A stretch of DNA of 64,000 nt from Roseibium sp. Sym1 (GTDB lineage: Bacteria; Pseudomonadota; Alphaproteobacteria; Rhizobiales; Stappiaceae), in NCBI RefSeq assembly GCF_027359675.1, contig NZ_CP114786.1, positions 930,001 to 994,000 of the forward strand, read 5' to 3'. Below the pieces are notes generated by a model. It did no database searches and had not been told where the DNA came from. It saw only the letters and a list, made by a program, of their open reading frames with translations. Of this stretch, positions 2-15,623 are shown in pieces. The stretch's first letter is position 1. Every line of letters starts with the position of its first letter. The translations under genes and the position numbers were made by a program.

Positions 2-3000
2 TTGGATCGGCCCAACCTTATCAAAGCACTCGACCCGTATTTCAAGGGATTCCCGGGAGAGAGCGTTGTTTGCATTCATGGCGAAGAAGGCTGCGGCAAA
101 TCATGGACAGTAATCCAATCCTGGCTGGCGCAGACCGACAAACCTCTCTTGGCATTTGCCACACCGGATGAATTTTCAGACACGGCCACGCAAGATGAGA
201 TTCAAAAGCTCCTGATCGCAAAGCTTCAGACCCAAACCGGCGACGACAAAGTTGATGCAAGCGCGACCAGATGGGGCCAACGGTTCAAGGGTTGGAAAAA
301 CGCTGATAAGCCTGCTCGGCCACGCTTCGTGCTCGTTATCGACGGAATAAATCAACGCCCCAAACGGTTATGGGGCAGAATTATCGACAGCGTCGCCACC
401 TATGCAAACTTGCACGGCGGGTGCGTTATGTTCACGACACGCACGCACTACTTAGAAAGCCGAGTCAGGAAAGCGCTGACCAGCGTGTTCAAGGGTATTC
501 TGGTTCCCAAATGGAGTGCATCCGAGCGGGACGACATACTCAAGCAAAACAACGTCCCGATAAATACGCTTAGCCCATCTGTTGCCGAGTTTCTTAGAAA
601 CCCCCGCATCTTGTCGATCGCACTCGATGTGTTCGGCAAAGATGTTACGGCTTTTGAGGAGTTGAGTATCGAAAGGCTTCTTCTTGAACACATTATGGCG
701 GGCGTGAAGCTGGACTTCGGGAACGATCCTGTCGAGTTCTTTGAGCATTTGCGAGCCCACGCGAAAACCCTGATGGAGCGGGTAAAAAGTCAGATCAGGG
801 ATGACCTTCACATTTTTGAATCTCATGTTCCTGCGGTCGCTGATGGTCGCTTCTTCAGTCCAGTGAAAGGCGAGCCAAGAAAGTATGAGCTAAGCGAAAA
901 TGGCCTGACGCTGGCCCTCGGGCTTTCGATCATCGAAAATCTGCGGCGGGCGGAACGTAACAACCGAGATCTGCATGATGCTCTAAAAGAGATTCTTGAA
1001 CCTATCGAGGCTCTGGACAAGACCGCCGCTGCGGTTGCTGCTGCGATCACAGTGTGCGCGGCAGACGATGACGAATACTCGCCTGAGATTGCAAAAGCTC
1101 TCATTCAAGGCTTCTCGGAGTTGCAAAACCCTCCTTCGGAAACGCTGGCAGCCCTTGTCAGTTTTGCCAAGGCAAGACCTTTGACGTTTGCCGAGACAAC
1201 GCGGGATCTTTGTTTGCAAGGCGGACATCAATCCAACTTCGATTGGATACAAGCTTCCTTGGTTGAAGCAGCAAAATCTGACGACGTTTTTGTCCTGGTT
1301 GCGGACGAAGTTCGGCGGTGGCTGCGGATGTATTCGCGCGATCCGGAACGCCGAATGCACGCTCATCCCAGTCGCGATCCAGCCGAAAAAGTTGCGCAAG
1401 AAAGGGAAAAACGTCAGGCAGAAATCGAAGGTGCGATTGCGTCATTTACACCCGCGGAGCAAAAACGCTTCGAGCGCCTAGTAGAGTCGGCGGGAGATTT
1501 AGACACGCTGTCCCAGACGGCGTTTCTCGTTTTGGCAGGCAAAAAACTGGCACAGTTCGCTGACGCCCTTTCCGATTGGAGCTTTGCCAACGCAATCAAC
1601 AGTTCCTATCAGGTACCCACAAAAGACTTTCTCGCCCTTGTCGGATTTAACCGTTGCGATTGGTCCGAGACGCGCGCCGAACTGCTGAAAGCGAGTGAAG
1701 ATTTGGCCGGCGATGGCGCCTCAAAAGCAGGAAAATGGGCACGGCTCAAGATTTTGCGTTCAACAGGCGCTTCCGATGATGACCAATTGGCTGAAGAGCT
1801 TTGGAAAGAGCTTCGAAAAGACTGGTCGCACCATTTTGTTTTTGAAAACTCCGATGACATCGCTGAGCCCTGCGATCCAGGTGCACATGCACCCGCAAAA
1901 CTTGATGAAGTTGTGCAGCGCTATCAAGACCTGGATGTAGCACTGCTGCGCCAACAGATGGGACAAACGGCACAGGACCACACACTGGTCGATGACAGGC
2001 CGGTTGTCGCCCGCTTTGCGCTGGATGCTGCCATCGAAAAACATAGAGAATTGGCAGACGATGTTCTTGGTCGGACTGGATTTCCGTTGCGACAAGGTTT
2101 GTTGGAGCTGCGCAAGCACAACGTAATCCTCAAGCCCGAGCAAGCGCGCAAGCTAATTGCCAAATGGAAAGAAGCTCAAACACATGGCGAAACGCAGGGA
2201 TTGTCGAAGGACGATGCAATCCTAGTTCAGTATGAATTGCTTGTCGCGTTCCCCTTTCTTGAAGCTGCCGAGCAACTGGAAATCCTACTGGATACGCGAG
2301 AGGATCAGCCACTACTTTTGGACGTTCTTGATGAAATCAAGTCCCTGGATACCGACACTATCGACTCTCAATTGACTGAAGCCCGTGCGTCTGGCTCGGC
2401 ACACAAGCAGCACCTCCTTCTGGAAATCGTTGCAGCTACTGGCACAGAAATCTCGAATGAGATGTGCAGTTTTGCGTGTTCCCTAATCTCTTCAAAGAAC
2501 GATCGACTTCGGGCTAGCGCAATTGGCCTCGCTGCCCGCTCTGAAAATTCCGATCTTCTCAATGCTGTCGCAAAGAGCGATTGGACGAGCGGTCCTTCTG
2601 AGGAAAAGGACAATTTCGAAGCTTGGTATGGTTCTCTCGCCTTACTCAAGGCGGCAGAAGCAGGTTTGATCGACAGCACTGAGATTCTAGACCGGATATC
2701 GCCCAGATTGTATGGACGTGCAGCGATCATTCTGAAGGGACAAGTCGCGCAAGAAATTGTCCGTCTCGTTGATGCTTCTATCCGTTGTGCGGCGGGTCTG
2801 CCCGAGGCGCTGATTGCTCCCGAAATAGAACTTGAGGCTGAAGAATCCAGGCGCGAGGAACCAGTGCGTTTTTCTATTTCAGAGAAAGAGCACCCCTCGG
2901 CAACCCCGCAGGACTTTTTCAAGAGAGTTTCTGAAAGCAATGAGGAATTTCGCGAGCGGCAAAATAGAAATTATGATGCCTTTATCGCCTTCAGAGAGGA

Positions 3001-3862
3001 ACTCACGGCGGCCAAAGCCCATATTGTCCTTGATCGCCTCACACCCGAAGAGTTCGCAGCGATTATTGAAGCTGATCCCACCGTTGCCCAGCGGTGGTTC
3101 AACCTATTTATGGATCTGAACGATGCCAAGTTACCGGCGGTACACAACCTGATTTTGCTGCTGGCCGGAGCAATCGGCAATTCCGATCCCGAAAAAGGCG
3201 CAGCGCTGCTAGAGCGAATAGCTCATAGTCGTCCGTTGGTAAGATTCACCTACGGCAAGAACGGCGTCGATCTGGGTTCAAAAAGCGCATGGTCGTGTGA
3301 CAGTTCCCCAGCCCTTGACGCAATGCGCCGAAAGCGGCTCGACAGCGCAGCTACTGATCAGGCCATCGCAGTGGAGGCTTTGTCTGCCTTGCAATGCGGA
3401 CAAGGTAACTTTCTGGAGAAGTATGTTGATGAACAGCTCGCACGCGCCGAACCGGCAGAAATTGCGCGGGCGATTATGATTGTCGGATACAGTGATCAAA
3501 GCCATCGCAATGATCAGATACTAGCCAAGTTTGAAGACAGCGCCGGGCTCCCTGGCAGGGCATATGCAGTGGCTGGTGCCGCGTATCGCCGCAATGTCTG
3601 GGCGCGTCACTGGTTCGAAGCCATGTGCAAGACTGACGATCCAGCCGATTTTTGGCAGGCTGGCGTCCTGTTCACGCAATGTGCTGATGGTAGATTTGGA
3701 GTGTGGAGAGACGAGTTTGAACAATCTGGTAAGATGATTTCATTGTTCAGTGCCGGCGTTGGCAGCGACTTGAAGCATCGATATGAAAAAAGAAGCAAGG
3801 AACGTGAAAAAAAGCTTTTTGGACAAGATGCACCTGCGCCGATTTTCGTCCAACAGGATTGA
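2..3862 (+). CDS. STAND/NACHT-like P-loop NTPase, 5' end cut by window edge
   Basis: At least 1286 residues are visible; the frame is open to the left edge, so the true N-terminus, possibly an effector domain, is missing. A Walker A motif, GEEGCGKS, lies at about residues 27-34 and a Walker B motif, FVLVIDG, near 108-114. A sensor-like TTR follows near residue 150 and an NPRIL motif near 199, as in NACHT/STAND ATPases. The remaining ~1000 residues are helical and leucine-rich, consistent with a repeat-type sensor. In this family the NTPase oligomerises on recognising a ligand and activates an effector; many bacterial members are antiphage (family knowledge). The position in a mobile element fits a defence role, which is inference. 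A hairpin-rich non-coding region follows at once. Confidence 0.7.
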   Translation: MDRPNLIKALDPYFKGFPGESVVCIHGEEGCGKSWTVIQSWLAQTDKPLLAFATPDEFSDTATQDEIQKLLIAKLQTQTGDDKVDASATRWGQRFKGWKNADKPARPRFVLVIDGINQRPKRLWGRIIDSVATYANLHGGCVMFTTRTHYLESRVRKALTSVFKGILVPKWSASERDDILKQNNVPINTLSPSVAEFLRNPRILSIALDVFGKDVTAFEELSIERLLLEHIMAGVKLDFGNDPVEFFEHLRAHAKTLMERVKSQIRDDLHIFESHVPAVADGRFFSPVKGEPRKYELSENGLTLALGLSIIENLRRAERNNRDLHDALKEILEPIEALDKTAAAVAAAITVCAADDDEYSPEIAKALIQGFSELQNPPSETLAALVSFAKARPLTFAETTRDLCLQGGHQSNFDWIQASLVEAAKSDDVFVLVADEVRRWLRMYSRDPERRMHAHPSRDPAEKVAQEREKRQAEIEGAIASFTPAEQKRFERLVESAGDLDTLSQTAFLVLAGKKLAQFADALSDWSFANAINSSYQVPTKDFLALVGFNRCDWSETRAELLKASEDLAGDGASKAGKWARLKILRSTGASDDDQLAEELWKELRKDWSHHFVFENSDDIAEPCDPGAHAPAKLDEVVQRYQDLDVALLRQQMGQTAQDHTLVDDRPVVARFALDAAIEKHRELADDVLGRTGFPLRQGLLELRKHNVILKPEQARKLIAKWKEAQTHGETQGLSKDDAILVQYELLVAFPFLEAAEQLEILLDTREDQPLLLDVLDEIKSLDTDTIDSQLTEARASGSAHKQHLLLEIVAATGTEISNEMCSFACSLISSKNDRLRASAIGLAARSENSDLLNAVAKSDWTSGPSEEKDNFEAWYGSLALLKAAEAGLIDSTEILDRISPRLYGRAAIILKGQVAQEIVRLVDASIRCAAGLPEALIAPEIELEAEESRREEPVRFSISEKEHPSATPQDFFKRVSESNEEFRERQNRNYDAFIAFREELTAAKAHIVLDRLTPEEFAAIIEADPTVAQRWFNLFMDLNDAKLPAVHNLILLLAGAIGNSDPEKGAALLERIAHSRPLVRFTYGKNGVDLGSKSAWSCDSSPALDAMRRKRLDSAATDQAIAVEALSALQCGQGNFLEKYVDEQLARAEPAEIARAIMIVGYSDQSHRNDQILAKFEDSAGLPGRAYAVAGAAYRRNVWARHWFEAMCKTDDPADFWQAGVLFTQCADGRFGVWRDEFEQSGKMISLFSAGVGSDLKHRYEKRSKEREKKLFGQDAPAPIFVQQD

Positions 3863-3906
3863 TCTAATTTATTCCGCTATCATTGATTTGCACGGTTCGG
3901 CGCAAG

Positions 3907-4357
3907 TGGAGAGACATATCTCCAAGCCCTGTGAGTGGTTTCAAGGGGCGCGATAGCCCTTTGATCGGGTTCAGCGTCGATACGCTGACGGCATCCAATC
4001 TGCGGAAGGTTGGTCAGGTTTCCAAAGGGCACGAAGGCTCATTGGTCGATGGGACGGTTCCAAGGAAGGGCAGCACGAATGCTCCCTTCCTGGTCAGGAT
4101 TGCATAAGGGCAGGAACGCCCTTTGCTCTCGATGAAATCGTCTCCATGAAATGGTCTGGGGTCTTGGGTACAGGAACGCCGCCCAAGTCGATGGGTGCAG
4201 GGAAAGCGAAGTTTCCCGCGAGTGGCTCAATCCGGCGATACGGGTTGGATGGCTCTGAAACGGGTTCAATACCCTGGAAGAGCCAAGGCTAGAGGGTCCA
4301 CGGGAGAGCGCAGCGTCTCCCTGGCAAGATCGGCGGGGTACTACCCCGCACATCTTG
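3907..4357 (+). ncRNA. Candidate large structured RNA: about 15 consecutive hairpins
   Basis: This gap between the NTPase gene and the resolvase has no credible ORF but is packed with short hairpins. Loops are at 3913-3918 (GACATA), 3950-3955 (GCGATA), 3977-3982 (TCGATA), 4001-4007, 4031-4036 (ACGAAG), 4075-4080 (ACGAAT), 4112-4117 (AGGAAC), 4134-4136, 4148-4150, 4172-4177 (AGGAAC), 4206-4211 (GCGAAG), 4235-4240 (GCGATA), 4266-4270, 4308-4315 and 4340-4342. Six loops share N-CGA-(A/T)-N. Four stems (second, fourth, fifth and twelfth) contain a non-Watson-Crick pair that is G-U on the + strand but A-C on the other, which favours a + strand transcript. Not recognised as a known RNA class. Protein-binding DNA hairpins are the alternative. 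Confidence 0.55.
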
Positions 4358-4413
4358 CGACTGAGAGATAACGGAATTTCCCGCGAAAACAGACCATAAA
4401 GGACAAGTACACC

Positions 4414-5031
4414 CTATTCTACGGCATTAGCACCGATTCGGTGTATGCTGCGCCGCAAGGTACTGGCTGACACTCCGAAACGCGCCGCAGCTTCATCCGG
4501 CGATTTGCCTCTCTCCTGCATATAGGATTGCGCTTCAAGAACCTGCTCATCCGTCAAGCATCTTGGCCTTCCGATTTGAGCACCCCGTTCACGTGCCGCC
4601 ATTAAGCCAGCACGGGTGTTTTCCCGGATGAGATTGCGGGAGAATTCGGCAACGGCAGCGAAGACATGAAAGACGAGCTTTCCTCCGGATGTTGTCGTAT
4701 CGATCCCTTCCGTCAGGGAGCAAAACTGGACCCCGTTCGCGTCAAGCCGCGTGATAAGATCGGCAAGGTGCAACACCGAACGCCCCAATCGATCCAGCTT
4801 ATAGACGACCAGGGTATCCCCTGCCGCTAATGCGTGCAGCGCCTTATCGAGACCGGGCCTCTCGGCCAATGCTCCCGAAAGGCCGCGATCCTGAAATATG
4901 CTTTTGCAACCTGCCTGTTTCAGCGCGTTGAGCTGAATATCCAGCTTTTGCTCGTAGGTCGAAACGCGCGCATAGCCGATCAACCTGCCACTTTGCGCAT
5001 TTGGCAATGTCGATGGGTGCCAGTGTTTCAT
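4414..5031 (-). CDS. Small serine recombinase (resolvase/invertase family)
   Basis: The 205-residue protein has the resolvase catalytic domain, with the nucleophile Ser24 in YARVSTYEQ, the YKLDRLGRS segment and the helix-E region, followed by a C-terminal helix-turn-helix (AAARFGVSASTLRRSI). That length and layout match Tn3 resolvases and Hin/Gin-type invertases. It would cut and rejoin DNA at a nearby res or inversion site, resolving cointegrates or flipping a segment. The start is chosen because AAGGAAA precedes the ATG. Perfect palindromes lie just upstream at 5053-5072 and 5180-5205 and could be its sites. It differs from the 528-residue recombinase at the tRNA end, so the element has two recombination systems. 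Confidence 0.85.
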   Translation of the reverse strand: MKHWHPSTLPNAQSGRLIGYARVSTYEQKLDIQLNALKQAGCKSIFQDRGLSGALAERPGLDKALHALAAGDTLVVYKLDRLGRSVLHLADLITRLDANGVQFCSLTEGIDTTTSGGKLVFHVFAAVAEFSRNLIRENTRAGLMAARERGAQIGRPRCLTDEQVLEAQSYMQERGKSPDEAAARFGVSASTLRRSIHRIGANAVE

Positions 5032-9053: not shown

Positions 9054-10856
9054 ATGGCGCAGTTCGTCCAGCAAGTCATCGATATCGGCGTCCCCGTTGC
9101 CGAAACCATTGTAATTGGCGGAACCGCAAATATTGCCCTGCGCACGGTGGTTTTCACTACACTGCGAATTTTTGGCGCATTCGATCCGCGATGGGACAAA
9201 AAGTGGCCCCGCCTGCCTTGGAGATGGCCATACCTGCGCCTCTGGATTCGTTTCCAGGAATGGAAAGAAGAGAATTTCAAGCAAGGCAAAGCCAGCGCTG
9301 GAAAATCCGGAGCATTAACTCAACTCGCCTTGCGATACGAGGAAGGCAACAGCCTGATTGGGCGCGTACGCTTGCCGCTTGGCATTCCCCATTACAGCCT
9401 AATCGGCGAGAAATCGGAACGGCATAAGCTCTATATCGCGTCTTCGCGGTCGGGGAAATCGTTGCAGGTTCAAACTGAACTTGCCCATATGCCGCAAGAC
9501 GCATGCGCACTGATCGTTGACCCGACTGCCAACCATACAAATCAAGTCCTTATCCCACTTGAACGGCGCGGACATGAGCTCTGTGCACTAGACCCGTTGG
9601 GATTACTGGACCGCCCATCTCAATCCATCAATTTCATCGCCCAAATCGATCTGATCAACGCACGGCTTGGCCAAGACCGGACAACGATATTGTGCGACCG
9701 TATTGCAAACCTGTCCTTCCCTGAAAGTAGCAACGAGAAGCCATTCTTTCGCGATATGGGACGCGAGGGATGGGCGCGAATTATCCTTTTCGCGAAAATC
9801 ACCAACAAAAATGCAGCCATGCTGGATGCACGCCGTCTGGTCTTGGTCGGCTTCATTGAGGATGCTGACGGTGATCCCGTGCTTGCAATGGCATTGCTCT
9901 GGGAGGCGATGCTGGCTTGCGATGCCTATGACGGTCACGTGTCGTCTTTTGCTGCGCAGATGATTGCGATGGACGAACGTACACGTGAGAATGTCCTCGC
10001 GACGATCCGCAGTAAAACGGCGTTTTGGGACCACGAACAGGTCAAATCGGTTTCCCGATCCAATGATGTCAATCTTTGCGACCTCAAAGACCCCGACAAA
10101 AATCTCATAGTTTCCCTGCCTGTCACTGTCGGGGAAATGCGCACGACCCTGAGGCCCTGGGTGGGCGGCATCATTTCTTTGTCGCTCGCGGTCATGGAAT
10201 GGATTCCCGGTGACCTAAAAACCAAGACACGGTTTGTGATTGAAGAGATTCAGGCTCTTGGTGAAGACGCGTTGCAGGGCGTGGGCGAAGCCTTTCCTCT
10301 CATGGCTGGCCAAGGCGTCTCTTTGACAGCCGTAGGTCAAGACTTGCCAGGTCTGCGGAAAGCCTTCCCAAAAGACTACAAATCCATGATCGGGAACGCG
10401 CAGCACGTGATTTTCATGGCGACGAATGACCATGAAACTTACGAGTACATCGCCAACCACGTCTTTGGGCAGAAGACCGTCAAACGGAAGAAATGGAGAA
10501 TCCCATTTCTTTGGACGGTTAGCAGCAAAGAAATCCCCGTCATCACTCCGGATCAGGTTCGGCGGTTTCTAGAGGCGGGACGGAACAACGCCATTGTTCT
10601 TCGCAATGGCAAGCGCTCCATGATGGTTAAAACAGCCCTCAGCTACAGAGTGTTACCGGTCTGGATGATCGACCCCAGCCGCGACCATCGTGAAACACGT
10701 GCCCGTGCTTGGTTTCGAAAGGTCTGGGAAGACTTCACGGCGCGGTGTGCTGAACGCCCTGAACCTATCACCGACATTCCACTTCCGCTCACCGGGACGG
10801 CCAAGCTCGAAGCGCTTGCTCGCTCGGTAGCGGCAAGCCGCCACCCTGAAACTTGA
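9054..10856 (+). CDS. VirD4/TraG-like type IV coupling ATPase
   Basis: 600 residues with the coupling-protein layout: a hydrophobic N-terminal stretch (~12-42), Walker A SSRSGKS at ~130-136, the VDPTANHT strand that VirD4 proteins use after the P-loop, and the C-terminal block with Walker B-type FVIEEIQALG followed by GVSLTAVGQDLPGL. Coupling proteins feed relaxase-bound DNA or protein into a type IV channel at the inner membrane. Oddities: Walker B has EE instead of the usual DE, only one weak membrane segment is visible, and neither relaxase nor channel genes are present. It heads an operon of five genes with strong ribosome-binding sites. It could serve mobilization through a helper system or a non-conjugative task. 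Confidence 0.75.
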   Translation: MAQFVQQVIDIGVPVAETIVIGGTANIALRTVVFTTLRIFGAFDPRWDKKWPRLPWRWPYLRLWIRFQEWKEENFKQGKASAGKSGALTQLALRYEEGNSLIGRVRLPLGIPHYSLIGEKSERHKLYIASSRSGKSLQVQTELAHMPQDACALIVDPTANHTNQVLIPLERRGHELCALDPLGLLDRPSQSINFIAQIDLINARLGQDRTTILCDRIANLSFPESSNEKPFFRDMGREGWARIILFAKITNKNAAMLDARRLVLVGFIEDADGDPVLAMALLWEAMLACDAYDGHVSSFAAQMIAMDERTRENVLATIRSKTAFWDHEQVKSVSRSNDVNLCDLKDPDKNLIVSLPVTVGEMRTTLRPWVGGIISLSLAVMEWIPGDLKTKTRFVIEEIQALGEDALQGVGEAFPLMAGQGVSLTAVGQDLPGLRKAFPKDYKSMIGNAQHVIFMATNDHETYEYIANHVFGQKTVKRKKWRIPFLWTVSSKEIPVITPDQVRRFLEAGRNNAIVLRNGKRSMMVKTALSYRVLPVWMIDPSRDHRETRARAWFRKVWEDFTARCAERPEPITDIPLPLTGTAKLEALARSVAASRHPET

Positions 10857-10869
10857 AAGGAGAAATAAA

Positions 10870-11868
10870 ATGAAACTTAATTCTGGTCGCTATATTCCGC
10901 CGACAGTTGCCTATGATCTTTTGGCACATCTATCGCTGTTCAGATCGATAGCAGAGAACCCAAACATCAAAGGACCTGCGATATTAATCATGCAAGGGCC
11001 GGCCGGCTCCGGCAAGACGTCCACAATCCGGCATCTTTGTAACCATATCTGTGCGCCCCTGTACGAACTTCACGGCAAGGACATGGTTTCGCAATGGGAG
11101 GGCCAAGGCACCAAAGCACTTGAACGAAAAATCATAGAAGCCGCCAACGACCCAAGCCCGTTTCAGCCTGTTGTCCTGCTGGACGATGCCGAAATGGGTG
11201 GCCTTCGCGTCGATGAGCGCTTTACCGGCACAGTGAACAACAACGCCTCGTCCGGTTGGCTCATGCAATTTGCGAACAACCCCAGAGAGTTGCTTGTCGA
11301 ATCCGATACGGGGACAAGGCGAACGATCAGGCTTAAGCGCCCTCCTGCTCTTATTATGATCGTTAACAACATCTCGGCACTTCATTCCCCACTGGTACGT
11401 GAGGGACGTGCCGCGCTATGCACCCTTGATCCAAGAGGTGCCGATCTACAAAGAGTGATTGCCGGTATGTTTCCCAAGCTGTCCGTTCGTCAGGCCGGAC
11501 AATTGGTGAACAAGTTTCCTGATAAATCGGTCGCGTTCTTTGCCGAATTGGTCAACGACCTCGCAAAACAGGCGGCAATGAACTGCGCTCGTGATGCGAG
11601 CTTTGATTTCCTCAGCGTTGATTGGAAGCACGCAGCAGCTTCGATTGTTGATGCCTCAAACGGTGCCACGTATCCGCAGCTAGTGGCTGCCGGTGAAAAG
11701 CTGGCTGCGCAATCACGGAACACCAACTTTGTGAACCAGGCGAAGCCGGTTCAAGAGGACGCCAATTCGCTCATCGGGCAGGAAGGCTTCCACAACTACG
11801 GCAACGGCGCGCTTCATCCTGCAAATGAGGAACTGCCGCAGCCGCACATCCCTCCCGTGAAAATTTAA
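10870..11868 (+). CDS. AAA+ ATPase
   Basis: 332 residues; AAGGAG precedes the ATG. Walker A GPAGSGKT is at 43-50, the AAA pore-region signature SQWEGQG near 74-80, Walker B VVLLDDAE at 101-108, and sensor-1 Asn in IMIVNN near 163-167. The core resembles classical AAA remodelling ATPases of the Rubisco-activase or TRIP13 kind. The last ~60 residues look disordered. It follows the coupling ATPase by 13 bp and precedes an unrecognised 195-residue protein, suggesting a motor with dedicated partners. What it remodels is not evident. Confidence 0.75.
   Translation: MKLNSGRYIPPTVAYDLLAHLSLFRSIAENPNIKGPAILIMQGPAGSGKTSTIRHLCNHICAPLYELHGKDMVSQWEGQGTKALERKIIEAANDPSPFQPVVLLDDAEMGGLRVDERFTGTVNNNASSGWLMQFANNPRELLVESDTGTRRTIRLKRPPALIMIVNNISALHSPLVREGRAALCTLDPRGADLQRVIAGMFPKLSVRQAGQLVNKFPDKSVAFFAELVNDLAKQAAMNCARDASFDFLSVDWKHAAASIVDASNGATYPQLVAAGEKLAAQSRNTNFVNQAKPVQEDANSLIGQEGFHNYGNGALHPANEELPQPHIPPVKI

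Positions 11869-14010: not shown

Positions 14011-14023
<13 letters not shown>
13649..14023 (+). CDS. Small protein overlapping the large recombinase
   Basis: 124 residues from a GTG, with GAGGAG 15 bp upstream and GAG nearer. Its end overlaps the recombinase start by 13 bp, so the two are translationally linked. The protein is acidic and mostly helical with no recognised domain; a basic tail (KRNVEGPSRRGSAKTGK) could touch DNA. It may be a recombination directionality factor or simply a coupled accessory gene; the evidence is position only. Confidence 0.55.

Positions 14024-15623
<1,600 letters not shown>

Follow-up and report, generated by a model that had tools for sequence, protein, structure and literature searches.

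A conserved two-hairpin core and a modular hairpin array that probably form the transfer-origin region of an integrative and mobilizable element in Roseibium

A run of hairpins in Roseibium sp. Sym1 probably represents the origin of transfer (oriT) region of an integrative and mobilizable element (IME), with part of the run acting as single-stranded DNA. The window, by which we mean the whole stretch of 64,000 nucleotides analysed here (positions 930,001 to 994,000 of contig NZ_CP114786.1), carries this run between a large open reading frame (2-3862, plus strand) and a resolvase gene (4414-5031, minus strand). Two parts can be told apart, both on the plus strand: a variable array at 3886-4293, delineated from local folding, shuffled controls and homologous modules with compensatory changes, and a conserved core of two hairpins that ends at a putative nick site. 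Judged from sequence comparison, the core is very probably an oriT; that the array works as single-stranded DNA is a separate and evenly balanced proposition. The structure, its covariation, the orientation of the modules and their fixed place beside genes for a relaxase, a coupling protein and an integrase are observed directly, and what is new fits best as a MOBP-like oriT that carries a long modular hairpin array.

The fold of the region is far more stable overall than chance would produce. The 551-nt intergenic sequence has a folding z-score of -4.5 on the plus strand and -4.4 on the minus strand, with none of 100 shuffles equally stable. When pairing is restricted to a span of at most 45 nt, positions 3886-4362 form 18 hairpin loops, 16 of them in the array, with an energy of -190.5 kcal/mol, compared with a mean of -142.6 kcal/mol (sd 8.0, best -166.2) for 200 dinucleotide shuffles. 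Hairpins with at least six pairs number 12 against 7.6 in shuffles (sd 1.9, maximum 12), a count that is high but matched by the best shuffle. A preliminary description of this DNA, made from its letters alone, had proposed about 15 consecutive hairpins, and this is borne out: 3886-4358 folds into about 15-18, far stabler than shuffled sequence. The span it gave, 3907-4357, does hold the hairpin run, which begins slightly earlier, at about 3886. Its six N-CGA-(A/T)-N loops, at 3950, 3977, 4031, 4075, 4206 and 4235, are all present (a looser test counts seven), and the repeat CAGGAACGCC is indeed exact at 4111-4120 and 4171-4180, 60 bp apart. Of the two AGGAAC loops it listed, that at 4112 is a clean hairpin loop; the one at 4172 forms no hairpin loop in any fold of the window, and its counterpart in homologues such as L002 and L027 is an apparent loop by eye. 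Together, the loops of the array modules read GCGATA, CGAT, ACGAAG, CGAA, AGGAAC or GCGAAG and are accompanied by conserved linkers.

The same description had recognized no known large RNA class, and the Rfam search it had named as a check agrees, with no match at the gathering threshold and, at E ≤10, a single uninformative match (10.7 bits, E 8.4). A search of 3700-4500 found neither a sigma-70-like promoter nor an intrinsic terminator, an absence that says little because shuffles expect only 0.4 and 0.7, respectively; nor was a terminator-like T-run found after the stems. Several other identities were considered and set aside. Integron attC sites were put aside together with the REP-like repeat and terminator cluster discussed below, given a single genome copy and no terminator-like site. 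We rejected a protein-coding region, as indels of one or two bases separate homologous cores and modules from one another, and the open reading frames at 3883-4107 (plus strand) and 4039-4353 (minus strand) look incidental. A sponge of GGA motifs for a CsrA/RsmA-type protein was dropped, since the AGGAAC hairpin loop occurs only once in the window fold and the other loops differ. As to a phage origin, the block at 4188-4370 had no match in the phage collection; a scan of viral contigs gave 10 stretches, of which two (L156 and L157) pass the core filter.

The hairpin stretch is single-copy in its own genome and has relatives on plasmids of Tritonibacter (84% identity over 56% of the query), Rhizobium, Bradyrhizobium, Sphingopyxis and Acidithiobacillus; the plasmid search returned 36 records at E ≤10, and among the 20 listed most are chance matches by their E-values. 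Thirteen of the 385 genomes of the class, the Roseibium genome included, match the stretch at E 0.001. A search of genome contigs with a pattern built from the last linker and loop gave at least 115 stretches, and a structure filter recovered cores from 70 of 148 sources, which reduce to 53 distinct cores of at most 72 bases (alignment A1). A covariance model of the core (R1) finds matches in 24 of 385 class genomes and in 17 of 398 genomes from the phylum, with three genomes (G000, the window genome, G107 and G189) counted in both searches. For analyses of neighbourhood we used 50 such hits, leaving out a weaker, overlapping, opposite-strand hit in G097 (one of 32 class rows) and three duplicates among 22 phylum rows; two of the 50 (G227:C80) share neighbours, and a few of the hit genomes also supplied rows of the model.

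The core consists of two adjoining hairpins, T2 and T1. T2 (4294-4324), placed by pair counts in A1 and by R1, begins with GGATG and continues through an outer stem, a conserved bulged C and an inner stem to the loop GCGCAGCG. T1 (4325-4357), likewise supported by A1 and R1, is an inverted repeat immediately 5′ to the putative nick, in which a stem beginning CAAG and one ending CTTGC enclose a short loop near GTA-TAC; it is present in all 53 rows. The putative nick motif CATCTTGC occupies 4351-4358, with a proposed cut between 4357 and 4358. R1 matches 4294-4358 of the window with 67.7 bits. Across the 53 cores, 95.7% of paired cells hold standard pairs, against 86.1% in shuffled alignments and 35-52% with slid partners; changes on both sides occur at 11 of 23 pairs, the covariation score is 0.269 against 0.101, and RNAalifold recovers both hairpins unaided. 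The conservation of the T2 linker and loop is partly by construction, because the search pattern fixes part of both, and the stems were left free. Forty-four of the 53 cores carry CATCTTGC, and the others include CAGCTTGC (four), TGGCTTGC (three) and CACCTTGC (two). CATCTTGC departs at one base from the MOBP nick consensus (C/T)ATCCTG(C/T), and nine of the 53 cores deviate more.

In the window genome the core occurs once only, and no core lies beside mobC. Genome G237 holds two inverted copies about 1.5 kb apart (L036:9994-10057, plus strand, and L036:11528-11591, minus strand), near a serine recombinase. Plasmids of Methylomagnum (L166:8356-8434) and Desulfosarcina (L168:9201-9295) have an insert that enlarges T1, and the Methylomagnum insert repeats the T2 loop word AGCGCTAGC, a possible loop-loop contact.

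Upstream of the core, the array is built of modules that repeat and vary, and which hairpins occur, and in what order, changes from locus to locus. By eye, homologues keep loops and linkers fixed as stems vary with compensation. Among the loci compared, arrays have differing 5′ ends, which abut unrelated sequence. Compensatory changes, which the preliminary description had proposed looking for in homologues, were found both in the core and in the module with a GGCGAWAC loop. For the latter (38 rows), 84.6% of cells are paired against 62.2% when shuffled, and the covariation scores are 0.622 and 0.199, respectively. Weaker figures come from the AGGAAC module, at 86.0% paired against 81.3%, where one of four pairs has changed on both sides in 34 selected rows. 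These rows (alignment A3) are 34 of 46 matches, the other 12 having been dropped by eye as lying outside arrays or having no inverted repeat, a selection that favours the structure.

We surveyed arrays in two sets of loci: a 73-locus set, comprising the 70 core sources and L003, L029 and L033 added by hand, and a model-only set of 34 of the 50 whole-genome hits of the core model. Hairpin density ahead of the core, counted per 430 nt, is 4.5 in the larger set and 3.1 in the model-only set, compared with 1.7 in flanks. One or more of eight module motifs can be found on the plus strand in 58 of the 73 loci, on the minus strand in five and in a flank of like length in 10; the corresponding counts in the model-only set are 20, five and six, with two or more motifs in 10 of 34. 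Sliding-window z-scores in that set are weak over the array (mean about -0.5), compared with -2.8 to -3.5 over the core, and three loci (L189, L180 and L203) seem by eye to have almost no array. The core is constant; the array is common and variable, and it is not universal.

Two observations bear on which strand folds. Module 8-mers are almost confined to one strand; GGTGCAGG, for example, lies on the plus strand in 44 of 73 loci and on the minus strand in none of them. In addition, mismatches in array stems identified in a strand-neutral way comprise 57 G.T and 23 A.C, against 73 and 63 in flanks, an excess of G.T that is significant relative to flanks (Fisher p 0.014) and to base composition (p 0.003). 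The 34-locus set alone gives 12 G.T to nine A.C, which is not significant, and aligned pairs give 56 to 24, from related and hence non-independent rows. From the excess of G.T over A.C, the plus strand is likely the one that folds, as RNA or single-stranded DNA; taken with module orientation, this agrees with the earlier suggestion that the plus strand is the structured one.

The neighbours of the core on small plasmids bear on what it may do. We considered eight plasmid records below 50 kb, leaving out the Gram-positive Staphylococcus warneri and Enterococcus italicus (E 0.1 and 2), and R1 finds the core in all eight. In six, mobC and a relaxase gene are no more than 0.6 kb away from the core, measured to the start of mobC, which the relaxase gene adjoins: Sphingopyxis pSREG01, Acidithiobacillus ferrooxidans pTF4.1, Methylomagnum pRS11DPr7, Frigidibacter pcai42B (with a small annotated open reading frame between), Desulfosarcina Do28_2 and Nitrosospira plasmid 1. 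The relaxases belong to PF03432 and the neighbouring genes are mobC/NikA-like. Two Acidibrevibacterium plasmids have no mobC or relaxase annotated in the 4-kb flanks. Among the 50 genome hits, 29 have a relaxase gene no further than 30 kb from the core, in either of two fixed layouts, namely upstream on the same strand (19 hits) or adjacent and divergent (10 hits); two hits have other layouts, and 19, some of them at contig ends, have no relaxase gene within 30 kb on the contig. By our estimate, which starts from the one to six relaxase hits found in most genomes, a random point would lie this close to a relaxase gene in a few per cent of cases. In the 19 upstream cases the distance from core to relaxase gene is 5.7-24.9 kb, unlike a textbook oriT. 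Twenty-four of the 50 have a large serine recombinase gene downstream, on the same strand. In the excerpted account of RP4, an inverted repeat likewise sits just 5′ of the nick, and the MOBP consensus is that given above (PMC3772185). We take the core to be very probably an oriT because of its linkage to mobC and relaxase genes, its MOBP-like motif and this placement of the inverted repeat. We describe it as working like a MOBP oriT and do not file it as a member of that class, because its motif departs from the nick consensus.

The array and core appear to be part of a larger element in the Roseibium chromosome. A script found an 11-bp direct repeat, GGAATGGTGGA, whose right copy (15544-15554, a putative attR) overlaps the 3′ end of a tRNA-Ala(GGC) gene (15548-15623, minus strand) and whose left copy lies outside the window, at G000:C1:916779. 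These repeats would delimit a putative element of about 28.8 kb; 11 bp is short, and other boundaries are possible. From the left, the order is a MobC-like gene (22.9 bits, just below the Pfam cut-off of 23.2), the relaxase gene (G000:C1:917376), a ParE-like gene, a DUF3800 gene (PDC-S51), PD-Lambda-4_A and the large open reading frame, followed by array and core, the resolvase, the coupling protein, an AAA ATPase and the serine recombinase. The large cargo frame (2-3862, plus strand), which may extend past the window start, had been called a STAND NTPase. It matches no family in Pfam, PADLOC or NCBIfam, and what stands of that label is a Walker-A-like GEEGCGKS in the translation. The neighbouring small resolvase was correctly named, as 4414-5031 matches PF00239 in Pfam; a relative occurs in 12 of the 73 array loci, the window included, within limited flanks. 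Further right on the plus strand are a T4SS coupling protein of VirD4/TraG type (9054-10856, PF02534, 5.4e-19), the adjoining AAA ATPase (10870-11868, PF00004, 4.2e-11) and a large, Ccr-like serine recombinase (14011-15597; PF00239, PF13408 and PF07508), which is far under the cut-off of the NCBIfam CcrB-like family and is probably the integrase of the element.

Several properties expected of an IME are thus found together: a recombinase at one end, the 11-bp repeat at both, and a relaxase with no T4SS of its own, as judged by VirB4 alone. VirB4-type PF03135 is absent from the element and has matches only on contigs C2-C5 of the genome. A relaxase and a coupling protein of its own and no VirB4 would make this a mobilizable element that borrows a T4SS. 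Elsewhere in the assembly, the coupling-protein and VirB4 scores of contigs C3 and C5 are identical (442.4 and 138.8 bits), which suggests duplicated or near-identical plasmids. Judged by gene order, the Roseibium element looks like a mobilizable one with anti-phage cargo between relaxase and oriT.

Defence genes also lie near related arrays and cores. The PD-Lambda-4_A protein of the element that carries the window array scores 296 bits (L040:15282-19190). On a Bradyrhizobium plasmid (L004:4434-7895), a partial array that lacks the core has an IetA/IetS pair immediately 5′ to it. On a Rhizobium etli plasmid (L170:5341-15078), a core has a type I restriction system and a KwaB-like gene as neighbours, and the surrounding sequence retrieved contains no related relaxase. 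In Rhizobium ruizarguesonis (L003:1133-8285), an array shares its island with a Shedu-type nuclease, a TIR gene and a DUF3800 gene.

Three parts of this account are inferred: the core would be nicked, the array would work as single-stranded DNA, and the array would serve a late step of transfer. The element's own MobC and relaxase would recognize the core and cut it at the MOBP-like motif. A plus-strand nick between 4357 and 4358 would send the DNA rightward, with the coupling-protein and recombinase genes leading and the relaxase gene, the cargo and finally the array entering last. The roughly 15 further hairpins 5′ of the nick would then form the trailing end of the T-strand, single-stranded in the donor only late in unwinding and in the recipient only late in entry. 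There, the array would most likely help to complete transfer by presenting the closing site to the relaxase, by providing priming or loading sites for second-strand synthesis in the manner of single-strand origins, or both; a trailing-end position would fit help with termination or second-strand priming. A bolder extension, which we put forward tentatively and consider somewhat doubtful, is that the array is a widespread and distinct part of the conjugative origins of a large family of mobilizable elements, modular and horizontally shuffled as single-stranded DNA (or RNA), and read by a dedicated factor where the transferred strand trails. Each module would then be a folded ligand with a fixed loop and a free stem, and the factor would terminate transfer or prime the second strand.

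The preliminary description had instead read the hairpins as a possible new structured RNA. A conserved, structured, single-stranded feature is well supported, and the covariation expected of a structured non-coding RNA is present, as it would be for structured single-stranded DNA. A free-standing RNA gene is unsupported, because the array ends in an oriT-like core that adjoins mobC and relaxase genes and has a stereotyped place in integrated elements. The main alternative, in which plus-strand array RNA is needed for mobilization in the manner of the sgm-sRNA of Salmonella Genomic Island 1 (SGI1) or provides a platform for relaxosome proteins, is unlikely in our view. It would account for covariation with conserved loops and linkers and for the G.T excess in aligned pairs, and there is precedent beside another oriT in SGI1 (PMC9299015, as excerpted). 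It sits poorly with array 5′ ends that differ among loci and abut unrelated sequence, with a conserved end that is the nick-like core itself and, as a weak test, with the absence of promoter- or terminator-like sites; in the excerpted SGI1 report, moreover, the oriT lies outside the sRNA core.

The hairpins could also be inverted repeats recognized as duplex DNA by MobC/NikA-type ribbon-helix-helix proteins, or cruciforms, and serve only relaxosome assembly in the donor. Passages on RA3 describe MobC binding to an imperfect palindrome by oriT, with further inverted repeats there (PMC4175270), and mobC lies near the core on plasmids. Yet stems that vary with compensation around fixed loops and linkers are the opposite of what duplex recognition predicts, which makes recognition by MobC less likely, and G.T exceeds A.C in aligned pairs; we regard this explanation as decidedly improbable. 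The least credible option, to which we give very little weight, is a decayed or selfish palindromic (REP-like) repeat or a terminator cluster with no role in transfer. It would suit the 19 of 50 core loci without a nearby relaxase and the coreless array pieces such as that of L004, but the single genome copy, the lack of any terminator-like site or T-run and a position and orientation conserved with respect to relaxase and recombinase all tell against it.

If the oriT reading is correct, core and array together supply a sequence-and-structure signature for the transfer origins of many integrated elements in Alphaproteobacteria and some neighbours, possibly including elements without a relaxase of their own. 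The signature would mark how anti-phage islands move between cells, and the array would allow the idea that a long folded single strand serves conjugation to be put to the test.

Among titles and available passages of the literature, with subscription papers mostly outside that range, we found no description of the core or the array; the comparisons below draw on excerpts of the sources cited. Like the oriT of MOBP (IncP/RP4-type) plasmids, the window core has an inverted repeat 5′ of a nick motif and, on plasmids, mobC/NikA-like and PF03432 neighbours. It differs in its one nick mismatch, two stacked hairpins, bulged C and long array, and in many integrated elements the oriT lies kilobases from the relaxase gene. 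Single-strand origins such as ICEBs1 sso1 and the sso of pBAA1 are orientation-dependent stem-loops for which structure is important (PMC4595007). The array resembles these in the nearly fixed orientation of stem-loops on mobile elements, a likeness by description, but has many more hairpins and interchangeable modules. The SGI1 sgm-sRNA, encoded between mpsA and oriT (PMC9299015), also comes from a region beside the oriT of a mobilizable island and is required for that island's transfer, whereas the SGI1 mobilization proteins are of another kind and its promoters and transcripts have been mapped.

In current IME terminology, elements with oriT and relaxase are iMOB and those with oriT only are iOriT (PMC11389934); the window element shares with IMEs an integrase, a putative oriT, a relaxase and a coupling protein, and it has no VirB4. 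In its excerpted passages, a 2017 review notes that no canonical relaxase-encoding IME had been reported from Proteobacteria, and it also mentions MobP-encoding IncP islands with some T4SS genes, Alphaproteobacteria included (PMC5704250). An oriT has also been published for pPDL2 of Sphingobium (PMC3516476). The nearest published likeness, within the excerpts available, is the predicted oriT of the Paracoccus MOBP5 plasmids pMARC2 and pAES4, a hairpin of a G-run and a C-run upstream of mobC (PMC3832669). It resembles T2 by eye, and is one short predicted hairpin for which those excerpts describe no array, whereas the window places its core at the end of a long one.
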